A DNA stretch of 64,000 bases, taken from positions 1 to 64,000 of the forward strand of contig JASBRX010000022.1 of the NCBI GenBank assembly GCA_030149245.1. Reading direction: 5' to 3'. Within the stretch, counting starts at the first letter, position 1. Every line of letters begins with the position of its first letter. Below the pieces are notes generated by a model. The model did not search any database, was not told the origin of the DNA, and saw only the letters and a list, made by a program, of their open reading frames with translations. This document shows, piece after piece, positions 24,574-56,739 of this stretch. A program made the position numbers and the translations under genes. This DNA is from Sphingomonas bacterium (GTDB lineage Bacteria; Pseudomonadota; Alphaproteobacteria; Sphingomonadales; Sphingomonadaceae).

Positions 24574-24636
24574 CGTCACCCCAGCGAAAGCTGGGGTCTC
24601 GTGTGGCTTGAGACCCCAGCTTTCGCTGGGGTGACG
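24574..24636. repeat. GTCACCCCAGC inverted pair (63 bp)
   Basis: CGTCACCCCAGCGAAAGCTG plus GGGTCTC is followed by a 9-base spacer and the exact inverse GAGACCCCAGCTTTCGCTGG plus GGTGACG. It ends 9 bases before the GTG start of the alcohol dehydrogenase. Read in frame, its right arm encodes ETPAFAGVT, which would wrongly lengthen that protein. Confidence 0.9.
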
Positions 24637-33018: not shown

Positions 33019-33101
33019 CGTCTCCCCAGCGAAAGCTGGGGTCTCGTGCGGCAGGGGAACCGCTTCGCAACTGGAGACCCCAGCTTTCGCTGGGGTGACG
33101 G
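33019..33101. repeat. GTCACCCCAGC inverted pair, diverged copy
   Basis: ACGTCTCCCCAGCGAAAGCT plus GGGGTCTC is mirrored by GAGACCCCAGCTTTCGCTGG plus GGTGACG, with a spacer of about 30 bases. One arm has CTCC in place of CACC. It lies between the two dehydrogenase genes of the operon and is the sister of 24574. Confidence 0.87.
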
Positions 33102-38077: not shown

Positions 38078-38173
38078 CGTCATCCCCGCGCAGGCGGGGA
38101 TCCATTGGCGCTGACGCTGCGGCTCATGCCGGACCGTCAGTCCTGAATGGATTCCCGCCTGCGCGGGAATGAC
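38078..38173. repeat. CGTCATCCCCGCGCAGGCGG inverted pair
   Basis: CGTCATCCCCGCGCAGGCGG plus GGATCCATT is mirrored by AATGGATTCCCGCCTGCGCG plus GGAATGACG, with about 38 bases between. It has the same CGTCA outer boundary as the palindromes that flank the two GIY-YIG genes. Confidence 0.9.
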
Positions 38174-42101: not shown

Positions 42102-42130
42102 GTCGTCACCCCGGGCTTGACCCGGGGCCC
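42102..42130. repeat. palindrome flanking GIY-YIG gene 1 (left)
   Basis: GTCGTCACCCCGGGCTTGAC plus CCGGGGCCC, a stem-loop (CCCCGGG / CCCGGGG). Its inverse-oriented partner is at 42492-42519 on the other side of the gene; both have GTCGTCACCCC outside and GGGGCCC inside. Confidence 0.9.
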
Positions 42131-42170
42131 ATCTCCGGGATTTTCAACACATTCGACAGCGAGGCAGGCG

Positions 42171-42416
42171 CTACCGGTTCAAGTCGAACCACAAATCCCG
42201 CCAGTCGGGATTCGACTCCTCGATCAGCGCAACTTTCCATGCACGCCGCCACTTCTTTATGCGCTTTTCTCGAACGATTGCGGCGTGGATGTCTCCGTGA
42301 AACTCAACATATACAAGGCGCATCGCCCGATGCTCGGCAGCGAAGCTGCTGCCCGTGCCGTCGCAATGTTGCCCGACGCGCTGGGCAACGTCTGCGGTCA
42401 CCCCGGTGTATAGCAC
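42171..42416 (-). CDS. GIY-YIG domain protein 1, start codon unclear
   Basis: A GIY-YIG endonuclease-like protein. From GTG 42416 it gives 81 residues, but the open frame continues upstream with no ATG, and that upstream part encodes YVYIVTNRKNG, the conserved first strand of the domain. The usual start seems to have been lost (a TTA codon lies where Met would be expected), so it may be degenerate or use a weak start. Conserved features are LYTGVTADVAQRV, the HRAMRLVYVEF strand, the REKRIKKWRRAWK helix and ESNPDWRDL, the last also in the second copy (55347). Flanked by inverted palindromes. Confidence 0.72.
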   Translation of the reverse strand: MLYTGVTADVAQRVGQHCDGTGSSFAAEHRAMRLVYVEFHGDIHAAIVREKRIKKWRRAWKVALIEESNPDWRDLWFDLNR

Positions 42417-42491
42417 GCCGTTCTTGCGGTTGGTGACGATGTAGACATATCCGCTTAACGACCGTCTCCCTGTACCGCGCGTGCGGGAGAT

Positions 42492-42519
42492 GGGCCCCCG
42501 CTTTCGCGGGGGTGACGAC
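42492..42519. repeat. palindrome flanking GIY-YIG gene 1 (right)
   Basis: GGGCCCCCGCTTTCGCGGGG plus GTGACGAC, inverse in layout to the left element at 42102. The stem differs in sequence (CCCCGC / GCGGGG), but the outer GTCGTCAC and inner GGGCCC boundaries are the same. Confidence 0.88.
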
Positions 42520-52656: not shown

Positions 52657-53256
52657 ATGATCGCGCATCTCAACGGCCATCTCGCCGCAACCGGCATCGA
52701 CCATGCAGTGATCGACGTGAATGGGGTCGGCTATCTGGTCGGCGCATCGGCGCGGACGCTGGCGGCGCTGGGCGCGATCGGCGAGTTTGTCACGGTCCAC
52801 ACCGAAATGCTGGTCTCGGAAGATTCGATGCGCCTGATGGGCTTTGCCAGCGCGGAGGAGCGCGACTGGTTCCGCCTGCTCACCGGCGTGCAGGGCGTGG
52901 GGGCCAAGGTCGCGCTGGCGATCCTGTCGATCTTGTCCCCGGCGGAGGTCCAGACCGCCATTGCCCGCGCCGACGCCGCGATGGTCGCGCGCGCCAATGG
53001 CGTCGGCCCGAAGCTGGCGCAGCGCATCGTCAACGAGCTCAAGGACAAGGCCGGCGGCGTCGCGGTCGGCACCGGTGGGGCAGGGGCGACGACTCCCGCC
53101 AGCGGCGCGGCGAACGACGCGGTCTCGGCCCTGCTCAACCTTGGCTTCAAACCCGCCGAAGCGAGCAATGCGGTGAATGCGGCAAGCGATGAACTCGGCC
53201 CGACCGCGACGCTCGATGCGCTGGTGCGGCTGGCGTTGCGGAAGGCGGCGAAGTGA
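52657..53256 (+). CDS. ruvA: Holliday junction branch migration protein RuvA
   Basis: A 199-residue protein that binds the four-way junction and loads RuvB. Domain I has [20 protein letters not shown] and [11 protein letters not shown]; domain II carries helix-hairpin-helix motifs ([39 protein letters not shown]); domain III (about 145-199) is the RuvB-contact part, [19 protein letters not shown]. All features are complete. Its stop codon overlaps the GTG of the next small exported gene. Confidence 0.96.
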
Positions 53257-53723
53257 AGTGGGCGATACTTGGCGGGCTGCTCGCATGCGGCCTCGCCTCT
53301 CCCGCACTTGCGTGTCGCGTCGAGCGGCACACGCTATCTCAGGATCGCCCGCTCCCTCGCCCGGGGGAGACCGTTTTGCTGCTTGAGGCGGAGTCGGTTC
53401 TACTTCGAAGAGCAGGCGGAGGCGAACCGATCGCCTTTCGCATGCGAGTGCTCAAGGGGAGCCGCAGCTTGCCCCCCGGGCGCCGCATCACCGTGCCCGC
53501 TCCAAATTGGGATGGTTGCATCTCTGCAATGGGAGTACCCGACCAAAATGGTCGTGTCCGCGGGTATGCGCGCGTACGAACCATGGTTGGCAGGGCAGGC
53601 ATATTTGAGATTGGTCCCTCGTCGCCAGCCAACGTGAAGCGCCTACAGTATTGCCTGGCTTCGCCGCGACGCTGTGTCTGGGGTCGAGTGCGCTTCAAGC
53701 GGGTTCCGGACGGGATCATGTAA
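53253..53723 (+). CDS. small exported hypothetical protein
   Basis: A 156-residue protein starting at GTG 53253, overlapping the ruvA stop by 4 bases. The signal peptide is [19 protein letters not shown]. The mature part has four Cys, two in [10 protein letters not shown] and [13 protein letters not shown], which could form disulfides, and reads as mainly beta. No known family is recognised. Although coupled to ruvA, its envelope location makes a role in recombination improbable; it is probably a passenger of the operon. GC content is lower than ruvA. Confidence 0.65.
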
Positions 53724-53795
53724 GCGCCGCCCCGCGCTCAACCCTTCTGCTTCCATCAAGCCCAACTTATCTCAGTATGACGGATAAGGTTGCAA

Positions 53796-53843
53796 GATAG
53801 CGCTACCAAAATCTCGTTGCGCTCTGAATTGATAGCGCTACCA
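53796..53843 (+). promoter_or_regulatory. paired LacI-type operators upstream of the xylanase
   Basis: GATAGCGCTACCA occurs twice, at 53796-53808 and 53831-53843, 35 bases apart and about 65 bases before the xylanase start. The palindromic TAGCGCTA core is the usual LacI-family binding core and resembles the xylan-utilisation box of Xanthomonas (TGGTAGCGCTAACA). No lacI gene is in the window. Confidence 0.7.
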
Positions 53844-53908
53844 TCGCTCCACTGGACACGGGTCCGGGCATGCAGGCCCGCAAACGGGCCGCGAGGAGGA
53901 GAGAGAGG

Positions 53909-55153
53909 ATGCGGTCCCTTACACGTCGGGAAACCCTTGGCCTTGCCGGAGCGCTGGGCCTTGCCGCCTGTAGTGGCGGCGGATCGGGCGGCGGCGGCAC
54001 CGTCTCCACGCCGTCACCGACCCCGACCCCAAGTCCGTCTCCAAGCCCGACGCCATCGCCCAGCCCCAGCCCCACGCCGACCCCGACCAGCACGCTCAAG
54101 GCCGCGGCCGCATCTAAGCGCATGCGCTTCGGATCCACCTTTGCCTGGGCCCCGCCCGGTGCCGATGCCGGGTCGTTCAACAACCCGTCTTACGCCGCGC
54201 TGCTCGAACGCGATTGCCAGCTGCTCGTCCCCGAAAACGAGATGAAGTGGGAATATCAGTCGAGCGCCCCGAATGTGTACGACTGGACCCGTGCCGATCA
54301 GATGCTCGCCTGGGCCGAGTCAAAGGGCATCGAGATGCGCGGCCATTGCCTCCTCTGGTACATTCAGGAACGGCTGCCCGCCTGGCTGCGCAGCTATGAC
54401 ATGGGGTCAAACCCCCGCACCACCGCCGAAAGCATCGTTCGGGCACATGTGCGACTCACCACGCGCCATTTCGGAGACCGGATCAAGAGCTGGGACGTGA
54501 TCAACGAGGCGATCGATCCCGCGACCGGCAATGTCCGCACCAACATCCTCCATAATGCGGTCGGCGGCGACAATTATCTCCTTGACCTCGCCTTCCGCAT
54601 CGCACGGGAGGAGCTGCCGACGGCGGAGCTGGTCTATAACGACTATATGGACTGGGGCTCGACCACCCACCGCAACGGGGTGCTGGCGCTACTTCAGGGG
54701 TTCCGCGCGCGCGGGGTGCCGGTCGACGCGCTGGGCATCCAGTCGCATATCGGATTTTACTCCAGCGGCACCGCGCAGGACATCGCCAATGCCCAGATTC
54801 CGGCGATGCGCGCCTTCCTCGATCAGGTCGTTGCGCTGGGCTACAAGCTGATCATCACCGAGTTCGACGTCAACGACCGCAACCGCACTGGGACGGTGGC
54901 GCAGCGCGACGAGGATGTCGCGGTGTACGGCCGCGCCTGGCTCGACCTGTTGTTCAGCTATCCGCAGCTCAAGGATGTGCTCGTCTGGGGCATGAACGAC
55001 AAATATAGCTGGCTGCAGAATTTCGGCACCCCGCGCCCCGACGGCCAGCCGCTGCGCCCGCTCCCCTATGACGCGAGCGCACAGCCCAAGCGGCTCTATA
55101 CTGCGATCGGCGACGCGTTTGCTGCGACGACCGCGCGTCCGGCACCGACCTGA
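53909..55153 (+). CDS. GH10 endo-1,4-beta-xylanase, exported lipoprotein
   Basis: A 414-residue xylan-degrading enzyme. The start MRSLTRRETLGLAGALGLAA carries a twin-arginine-like RR and is followed by a lipobox LAAC, so it is likely a Tat- or Sec-exported lipoprotein. A Gly run and a Ser/Pro/Thr linker (residues about 38-75) lead to the GH10 barrel: NEMKWEYQSSAPN, GHCLLWYIQERLPAWL, acid/base Glu in WDVINEA and nucleophile Glu in IITEFDV. ATG 53909 has GGAGGAGAGAGAGG upstream. It splits the ruv genes, and two LacI-type operators precede it. No other xylan gene is nearby. Confidence 0.93.
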   Translation: MRSLTRRETLGLAGALGLAACSGGGSGGGGTVSTPSPTPTPSPSPSPTPSPSPSPTPTPTSTLKAAAASKRMRFGSTFAWAPPGADAGSFNNPSYAALLERDCQLLVPENEMKWEYQSSAPNVYDWTRADQMLAWAESKGIEMRGHCLLWYIQERLPAWLRSYDMGSNPRTTAESIVRAHVRLTTRHFGDRIKSWDVINEAIDPATGNVRTNILHNAVGGDNYLLDLAFRIAREELPTAELVYNDYMDWGSTTHRNGVLALLQGFRARGVPVDALGIQSHIGFYSSGTAQDIANAQIPAMRAFLDQVVALGYKLIITEFDVNDRNRTGTVAQRDEDVAVYGRAWLDLLFSYPQLKDVLVWGMNDKYSWLQNFGTPRPDGQPLRPLPYDASAQPKRLYTAIGDAFAATTARPAPT

Positions 55154-55268
55154 CCGGGAGGGGATTGGCTTGCCCGAAGCGAACGGATAAGGAACGTTTG
55201 TGGCGCGCATTATCTCCCGATCTGATCGTAGTCGCGAGGCGGCGAAGTGAAACCCGTTGCCTCTCACT

Positions 55269-55299
55269 TCCGTCATGCTGAACTTGTTTCAGCATCCAC
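55269..55299. repeat. palindrome flanking GIY-YIG gene 2 (left)
   Basis: TCCGTCATGCTGAACTTGTT plus TCAGCATCCAC, 31 bases, with an internal hairpin TGCTGAA / TTCAGCA. Its exact inverse is at 55666-55696. Confidence 0.95.
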
Positions 55300-55346
55300 C
55301 GCGCCCCGAGCGACGACCCCAAGGCTCCATCGCAAAGGGCGCAGCC

Positions 55347-55676
55347 ATGCCCAAGCAACCCTGCGTCTATATCCTTGCCAGCCAGCGGAACGGCACGATC
55401 TATGTCGGCGTGACCTCCGATCTGATCGCGCGCCTGCACCAGCATCGCAGTGGCGAAATCCCGGGCTTCACGCAGCGCAACCACGTCCACATGCTCGTCC
55501 GCTACGAATTCTTCGCGACGATGCCGGAGGCAATTGCGCGCGAGAAGCAGCTCAAGCGATGGCACCCGTCATGGAAGATCAATCAGATCGAATCCGAAAA
55601 CCCCGACTGGCTGGATCTGGCTGTCGGGCTCGGGCTGGAGCCGTTGGCGCATCGCCCGCCGCACAGTGGATGCTGA
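55347..55676 (+). CDS. GIY-YIG domain endonuclease-like protein 2
   Basis: A 109-residue protein with a single GIY-YIG domain (UPF0213/URI-type). CVYILASQRNGTIYVGVTSD carries the two Tyr of the motif; LIARLHQHRSGEIPGFTQRN has the Arg; YEFFATMPEAIAREKQLKRW has the catalytic-helix Glu. The tail NPDWLDL matches GIY-YIG protein 1 (NPDWRDL). ATG 55347 is chosen since upstream codons come from the left palindrome. The gene's TGA lies inside the right palindrome. Perfect inverted palindromes flank it, as at the first GIY-YIG gene. It lies between the xylanase and ruvB. Confidence 0.88.
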   Translation: MPKQPCVYILASQRNGTIYVGVTSDLIARLHQHRSGEIPGFTQRNHVHMLVRYEFFATMPEAIAREKQLKRWHPSWKINQIESENPDWLDLAVGLGLEPLAHRPPHSGC

Positions 55677-55696
55677 AACAAGTTCAGCATGACGGA
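55666..55696. repeat. palindrome flanking GIY-YIG gene 2 (right)
   Basis: GTGGATGCTGAAACAAGTTC plus AGCATGACGGA, the exact inverse of the left element over 31 bases. It contains the stop codon of the GIY-YIG gene and ends 17 bases before the ruvB start. Confidence 0.95.
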
Positions 55697-55713: not shown

Positions 55714-56739
55714 ATGACCGACCCCGACCGCATCCTCACCGCCACCCGCCGCCCGGAGGACATCGACGCCGCGCTGCGCCCCAAGTCGCTCGACGAGTTC
55801 GTCGGCCAGCGGGCTGCGCGCGATAACCTGCGCGTATTCATCGACGCGGCGAAGCAACGTGGCGATGCGCTCGATCACGTGCTGTTCTTTGGCCCGCCGG
55901 GGTTGGGCAAGACCACACTGGCGCAGATCATCGCCAAGGAAATGGGCGTCGGGTTCCGCGCCACGTCCGGCCCCGTCATCGCCAAATCGGGCGACCTTGC
56001 CGCGCTGCTCACCAATCTCGAGGATGGCGACGTCCTGTTCATCGACGAGATTCACCGCCTCGCCCCCGCGGTCGAGGAAGTGCTCTATCCCGCGATGGAG
56101 GACCGCGCGCTCGACCTGATGATCGGGGAGGGGCCGTCGGCGCGCAGCGTGCGGATCGATCTGCCGCGCTTCACCCTGGTCGGCGCGACCACGCGACAGG
56201 GACTGCTGACCACCCCGCTGCGCGACCGCTTCGGCATCCCCGTGCGCCTGCAATTCTACACGGTCGAGGAATTGACCCGCGTCGTCACCCGCGCCGCCAA
56301 CCTGCTCGACCTTGCCATTGCCGAGGATGGCGCGGCGGAGATTGCGCGCCGGTCGCGCGGCACCCCGCGTATCGCCGGGCGGCTGCTGCGCCGGGTGCGC
56401 GACTTTGCCAATGTCGCGGGTGAGACAGTGGTGCATGCCAAGGCCGCGGACGCCGCGCTGACTCGGCTCGAAGTCGACGCGCTCGGCCTCGATGCGATGG
56501 ACCGGCGCTACCTCACCATGATCGCCGACATCTATCGCGGCGGCCCGGTCGGGGTGGAGACGCTCGCCGCGGGCCTCAGCGAACCGCGCGACACGGTCGA
56601 GGAGGTGATCGAACCCTATCTCATCCAGATCGGCATGATCGCCCGCACCGCGCGCGGCCGCTGCCTCAACGCGGCGGGTTGGAAGCATCTCGGCCTCAAC
56701 CCGCCCGCCGGGTCGCAGGACGGATTGTTCGACGGGTGA
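55714..56739 (+). CDS. ruvB: Holliday junction branch migration helicase RuvB
   Basis: A 341-residue AAA+ motor that drives branch migration with RuvA. It has the conserved start [12 protein letters not shown], Walker [10 protein letters not shown], Walker [10 protein letters not shown], sensor 1 GATTRQG, sensor 2 [17 protein letters not shown] and the C-terminal winged helix ([20 protein letters not shown]). GGGGGAA precedes ATG 55714. In this genome ruvB is about 2.5 kb from ruvA, with an exported protein, a xylanase and a GIY-YIG gene between; it may therefore need its own promoter. A perfect stem overlaps its stop. Confidence 0.97.

Follow-up and report, generated by a model that had tools for sequence, protein, structure and literature searches.

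In the RAYT/REPIN system of the GTAG REPs (REPtrons), an enzyme gene is enclosed by its repeat, gene-less inverted pairs of the repeat occur, and the repeat type follows the enzyme. The unit described here shares these traits, but carries a GIY-YIG fold and a CGTC tag where the RAYT system has an HUH tyrosine transposase and a GTAG tag. With Ssn of Neisseria and relatives it shares a single-domain GIY-YIG protein and a cognate dispersed repeat. A paper said to have appeared in Nature Communications in 2025 reportedly describes Ssn as GIY-YIG nucleases that cut single-stranded DNA at a cognate repeat that occurs hundreds of times in Neisseria; its homologues are reportedly numerous and differ in specificity. 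That work is said to be set in transformation and tools, and to treat Ssn neither as the partner of CGTC REPs nor as a unit with gene-less derivatives. It makes a cutting step more likely for the protein studied here and our finding less new; an earlier note on this DNA, which knew of no described system of this type, was too strong in this respect.

The note was also too strong as regards the repeats, which are the CGTC REPs already described (PMC3733652). According to excerpts of that 2013 survey by Di Nocera, CGTC-tagged REPs “apparently lack a dedicated transposase”, no transposase gene lies regularly beside them, and they are located mainly downstream of coding regions. As characterized in those excerpts, they resemble the palindromes of our locus in the unpaired CGTC tag, an 8-bp stem beginning AT, a 5-nt loop and a CCA tail, and they too form inverted (head-to-head) dimers, mainly in alphaproteobacteria. 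The excerpts report no dedicated enzyme, whereas a GIY-YIG gene lies between the repeats here; the term GIY does not occur in the main text of PMC3733652. Neisserial dRS3, with the pattern ATTCCC(N8)GGGAAT and 646-725 copies per meningococcal genome (excerpts of PMC3898611), is classed there as a CGTC-1 repeat. No published work on bacterial repeats with GIY-YIG genes was found among the matches listed (titles and abstract openings; PMC12306157 and PMC5082802 were searched by term).

The GIY-YIG unit and other palindromes of the genome

The window (the whole stretch of DNA analysed, 64,000 nucleotides) had been noted to hold a single-domain GIY-YIG gene between two 31-bp elements that are perfect inverses, each with a hairpin, and with the stop codon of the gene inside the right element. 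This description was borne out by sequence, folding and a Pfam match, and comprises the following features:

55269..55299, + strand: left CGTC-tagged palindrome (REP), from sequence, shuffle test, flank alignment and folding
55347..55676, + strand: GIY-YIG nuclease gene, 109 aa (PF01541, E 2.1e-15; active-site residues conserved)
55666..55696, - strand: right CGTC-tagged palindrome, holding the stop codon of the gene (exact inverse of the left; shuffle test; flank alignment)

The TGA of the gene occupies 55674-55676. The 28-bp core of the palindrome has two matches in the window at up to three mismatches, versus none in 100 dinucleotide shuffles. Each element is predicted to form a DNA hairpin, in which a stem of 8 bp carries a 5-nt loop; the CGTC end is unpaired in the left element, and the right element has an additional 2-bp pairing in its minimum-energy form that is absent from the centroid. 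As palindromes of 20-40 bp with an unpaired CGTC at one end, the elements classify as CGTC-tagged REPs, and they have the form of that class (8-9 bp stem starting AT, 4-5 nt loop, CCA tail). Several other palindrome families in this genome start AC (GTCAC) instead of AT.

The protein consists of one GIY-YIG domain (residues 5-79 by Pfam), and a Pfam scan at E 0.1 returned no family besides PF01541 and no HUH tyrosine transposase domain. Over 149 loci, Y8 (149/149), Y19 (148/149), G21 (149/149), R29 (148/149), H33 (148/149) and E66 (147/147) are nearly invariant, which we take to be the expectation for a working GIY-YIG active site. A structure model of the protein (mean pLDDT 88) matched 1zg2, 1ywl, 6seh and 1yd6 best, all weakly (best E 1.9e-3, TM about 0.5); the solved structures that come closest to it belong to UPF0213 proteins, Slx1 and UvrC. 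The UvrC N-terminal domain, UPF0213 and Slx1 have the same fold, and we know of no repeat association for them. GIY-YIG homing endonucleases of the I-TevI type have a separate DNA-binding domain and are located in an intron; a two-domain enzyme of that kind was rejected, since the protein has 109 aa and one domain and its gene lies between protein genes. A RAYT identity was likewise rejected, there being no HUH domain found and no GTAG tag.

The window holds 10 REP-like palindromes, versus 0-2 in each of ten shuffles, and all 10 sit in five inverted pairs (head-to-head dimers); tail-to-tail dimers were absent from 4 x 200 kb. Besides the unit above, these features are concerned:

24575..24635, unstranded: gene-less inverted pair, REPIN-like (elements at 24575/24613), family of the unit on contig C20
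33020..33099, unstranded: gene-less inverted pair (elements at 33020/33077), family of the unit on contig C20
38079..38173, unstranded: gene-less inverted pair (elements at 38079/38151), another CGTC family
42105..42128, + strand: palindrome of a second unit (palindrome detection)
42180..42449, - strand: second GIY-YIG gene, extent of the protein match
42494..42516, - strand: opposite palindrome of the second unit (palindrome detection)

The earlier note had named the three gene-less pairs (as 24574, 33019 and 38078) as non-autonomous relatives of the unit in the manner of REPINs. The pairs are real, and the analogy is supported, although the families to which they belong are different ones within this system. 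In the pairs at 24575/24613 and 33020/33077, three of the four elements are identical over 27 nt to the family of the C20 unit and one has a mismatch, whereas the pair at 38079/38151 has no good match to any of the six units of the genome. The second GIY-YIG unit (42105-42516) had been missed; its two CGTC palindromes differ in stem sequence and are of another family than those of the first unit, the left one being of the same type as the palindromes of a unit on contig C5.

Six GIY-YIG genes were found in the assembly (3.1 Mb, 82.7% complete), and all six are enclosed by inverted palindromes, with flank scores (defined below) of 16 to 36.5 and at least five sequence types of palindrome. The palindrome of the window unit has 11 matches in the genome at up to three mismatches, versus none for the reversed pattern. 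Copies outside the unit comprise three inverted pairs matching on both sides, two with a variant partner, and one single element.

Flank matching and palindrome-protein covariation

In order to quantify the association, the 300 nt upstream of each gene were aligned to the reverse complement of the 300 nt downstream, and a score of at least 16 was counted as a match. Within the genus, 78 of 94 loci reached this threshold, versus 2 of 1325 null positions. These loci consisted of 29 best-scoring ones, 59 from genomes picked mostly for many copies, and six from the genome of the window; L070 (no profile hit) and L006 and L007 (same place as L014) were left out. Outside the genus, 28 of 38 loci (26 loci and 12 out of 33 plasmid records) passed, versus 14/484 for a null that is itself not clean. 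A set named later, with the threshold preset, gave 65/77 versus 9/1483 null positions and 3/643 for a null of small ORFs; three of its 80 loci had been dropped at contig ends, and without three of the remaining 77 that overlap earlier loci the count is 62/74. The tag GTCA[TC], which a random 60-nt stretch carries in 20% of cases, is present in 64 of the 65 passing loci. Loci under the threshold number 16/94 in the genus, 10/38 outside it, and 12/77 in the later set.

The earlier note had proposed a test for enrichment of palindromes at the flanks of homologues, and enrichment was seen in the genus, outside it and again in the later set. Chance inverted repeats were rejected in view of the dinucleotide shuffles (0/100) and the null positions (2/1325, 9/1483). 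When flanks were swapped between different GIY-YIG genes of one genome, only 18 of 272 combinations matched, versus 78/94 for the two flanks of one gene, so that neither repeat-rich surroundings nor the general REP richness of intergenic DNA explains the enrichment. Terminators alone were rejected in view of the inverse palindromes on both sides and the small-ORF null. The association between palindromes and GIY-YIG genes is real, wide and gene-specific.

Bacteroidota and Cyanobacteriota entered the flank test with one locus each: the flanks in Spirosoma score 17.0 and contain GTCATCC, and those in Planktothrix score 17.5, are imperfect and lack a CGTC tag. On the Planktothrix agardhii plasmid (L217), the GIY-YIG gene with its imperfect inverted flanks has the gene of an MmeI-like restriction enzyme on one side and a DISARM helicase gene on the other. 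Two contigs carry pairs of GIY-YIG homologues about 1.4 kb (G469:C147) and 0.9 kb (G568:C23) apart, which are possible tandem units.

Palindrome sequence was found to covary with the protein. For pairs of units at different sites, protein identity and palindrome similarity correlate with a Spearman coefficient of 0.36, reached in none of 1000 permutations (6543 pairs among 118 flanked units of the 149 loci, the 31 loci scoring below 16 being left out; site clusters were drawn from flank similarity, so that some were merged and very diverged shared sites could count as different). On the protein tree, which was built from few columns and leaves many forks open, 30 changes of palindrome type were counted, versus a minimum of 64 in 200 shuffles. 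The earlier note had suggested looking for such covariation between palindrome and protein clade, which these results support.

Between related proteins at different sites, border identity, followed inwards from outside, remains at the background of 0.26-0.30 up to the third base ahead of GTCA, rises to 0.43 and 0.41 at the second base ahead of it, and reaches 0.87 and 0.82 at the C directly before it (520 different-site pairs that are not independent of each other, with anchoring possible for 313 and 328 of them; GTCA served as the anchor and was excluded). Homology between sites thus ends at the CGTC tag, the border of the unit. Enrichment, gene-specific flank matching, clade covariation and borders at the tag agree with the proposal in the earlier note that gene and palindromes form one unit.

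The ruvA-ruvB locus and turnover of gene-less pairs

The window unit lies between the genes of an interrupted operon:

52657..53256, + strand: ruvA, upstream member of the interrupted operon (PF01330)
55181..55195, + strand: GAAC-N7-GAAC motif (sequence)
55714..56739, + strand: ruvB, downstream neighbour of the unit (PF05496)

The stretch between ruvA and ruvB further contains, at 53253-55153, a small open frame together with a gene of the GH10 family (xylanase-like), so the operon has likely been opened more than once. No transposase was present among the scanned neighbours, namely ruvC, ruvA, the GH10 gene and ruvB (the frame 53253-53723 lay outside the scan). The motif GAAC-N7-GAAC, which we take to be LexA/SOS-box-like, lies close before ruvB in five relatives that lack the unit (L108, L114, L116, L128 and L145). 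In the window, it stands upstream of the GIY-YIG gene. From the position of the motif, expression of the nuclease may, like that of ruvB, be induced by damage.

The locus was compared in 21 genomes, the window included, with a single genome standing for each species. The whole unit is present in four (G000, G026, G236 and G257), the gene end and the right palindrome remain in G286, a single left palindrome is found in G030, G266 and G102, and the unit is absent from the compared stretch in 13. The GIY-YIG copy in G236 (L139) is broken by an in-frame stop, with both palindromes intact. In G015, the sequence from window position 55219 to about 55713 is missing, and by ruvB identities the absence in G015, G220 and G251 looks like loss. 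These identities suggest an older insertion followed by repeated loss, with the lone palindromes as remains, and no clear target-site duplication was seen at ruvA-ruvB. At this site, species thus differ in whether they carry the whole unit, a comparison that the earlier note had proposed for related strains, but loss and decay are clearer than fresh insertion. The protein clade of the window unit lies upstream of ruvB in G000, G026 and G011, whereas six loci (L046, L056, L082, L104, L162 and L168) carry it elsewhere, again together with this palindrome. In L104, the unit is located between carboxyl transferase and biotin carboxylase genes (acyl-CoA carboxylase-type), with a small frame adjoining, and a GIY-YIG unit of Azospirillum is located between sufB and sufC.

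Gene-less pairs were followed in four close species, which are about 87-96% identical over the loci compared, through 200 kb each. For 12 of the 13 gene-less dimers whose flanks could be aligned, one or more of the other species show no recognisable REP, which indicates fast turnover; absence here means that no palindrome passed the detector used, three G034 pairs without alignable flanks were left out, and a single palindrome that matched on both strands did not count as a dimer, whereas separate dimer counts for G024, G018 and G058 include such palindromes. The cleanest simple empty sites are G018:117789 and G058:189970, among only a few junctions of that kind. Elsewhere, the edges are ragged beyond the palindromes and some sites are filled by other sequence; no clear target duplication was seen in eight alignments of a pair with its empty site. 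Seven of the nine dimers in G034 fall into the two families found at the flanks of L091 and L092, which are units of that genome. Units with a gene occupy shared sites in G018, G024 and G034 in three sets, so they seldom move.

Across 61 genomes of the genus, the window palindrome has 0-120 copies at up to two mismatches. At least five copies occur in 10/10 genomes that have a homologue with 66% identity or more, versus 8/51 others (Fisher 5e-7; 1.6e-6 without the own genome), where the 66% cut-off was picked after the data had been seen and the copy counts take in the flanks of the units themselves. Over all 61 genomes, the rank correlation between copy number and best homologue score is weaker (0.30, P 0.018). 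Eight genomes have 5-120 copies without such a homologue; the largest number, 120 in G016, stands beside a best homologue of only 58% identity, and G016 holds either an orphan repeat population or a gene that was missed.

Proposed role of the nuclease and alternatives

We propose that the gene and its inverted CGTC palindromes form one unit, and that the nuclease cuts its own palindromes as single-stranded hairpins and serves as their dedicated spreader, a reading to which we give about even chances. The nuclease would bind and cut the palindrome of its own family, the cut would fall on a single-stranded DNA hairpin near the CGTC tag, and cutting would lead to copying or insertion of the palindrome. 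Since GIY-YIG enzymes should hydrolyse DNA and not join it, host replication and repair would presumably complete the process. The nuclease would then have a role for CGTC REPs that parallels the one proposed for RAYT transposases at GTAG repeats. The most economical mechanism would be such a partnership of the RAYT kind, in which a nuclease stands in for the transposase. In its broader form, GIY-YIG nucleases would be the missing mobilisers of CGTC REPs, that is, a second and independent REP-spreading lineage beside the HUH RAYTs, in which a hydrolytic nuclease for single-stranded hairpins multiplies a selfish palindrome, with several pairs per genome, across Pseudomonadota and with candidates in Cyanobacteriota and Bacteroidota; its probability we put a little short of even.

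A plausible but rather doubtful alternative is that the nuclease acts in the manner of Ssn, as a site-specific single-stranded nuclease that limits or steers incoming or recombining DNA at its cognate repeat, the repeats having been spread by another agent and the unit being immobile. A homologue in N. gonorrhoeae, possibly Ssn itself, is 60% identical to the window protein and has dRS3-type palindromes (ATTCCC(N8)GGGAAT) on both sides, at 177 and 234 nt from the domain and thus further out than in most units; the stability of gene units among three close species fits the same reading. By itself, it leaves unexplained why the flanks of paralogues match gene by gene, why palindrome and protein covary across sites, why homology stops at the tag, and why gene-less pairs turn over. 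In another reading, the CGTC pairs are moved by a different enzyme, and a homing-like GIY-YIG nuclease has settled between the palindromes and rides along; in its favour, the unit is built as a gene-less pair with a gene in the spacer. We consider this improbable, since covariation of flanks and protein over many clades would need long co-inheritance, and excerpts of PMC3733652 report no transposase gene regularly beside CGTC repeats. Very improbable, finally, is that the palindromes act as terminators or as stem-loops stabilising mRNA and lie by chance beside small genes in repeat-rich intergenic DNA: the elements do form hairpins, and REPs are described as lying mainly downstream of coding regions (excerpts of PMC3733652), but the palindromes stand on both sides in inverse orientation, small ORFs pass at only 3/643, and swapped flanks match at only 18/272.

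Should the nuclease be the spreader of its palindromes, this would outline an answer to a question open in print since 2013, namely the enzyme of the CGTC REPs (PMC3733652, from excerpts). Genes annotated as “GIY-YIG nuclease family protein” and left unexplained would be joined with an extensive group of repeats between genes to give a single system open to testing, in which several nuclease-palindrome pairs per genome provide built-in specificity controls. Should movement be demonstrated, spread of a short palindrome by a nuclease only would differ in mechanism from the action of transposases.

Another GIY-YIG clade, distinct and with good support (32 rows, 26 of them scoring at least 16), comprises part of L018-L045 and one gene of the window genome (C1:53473-53691, L012). 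Its flanking repeat, CCGTTCG...CTGAGC...TCGA, falls outside the CGTC and GTAG classes and may represent a third superfamily of REPs, served by a nuclease of its own.
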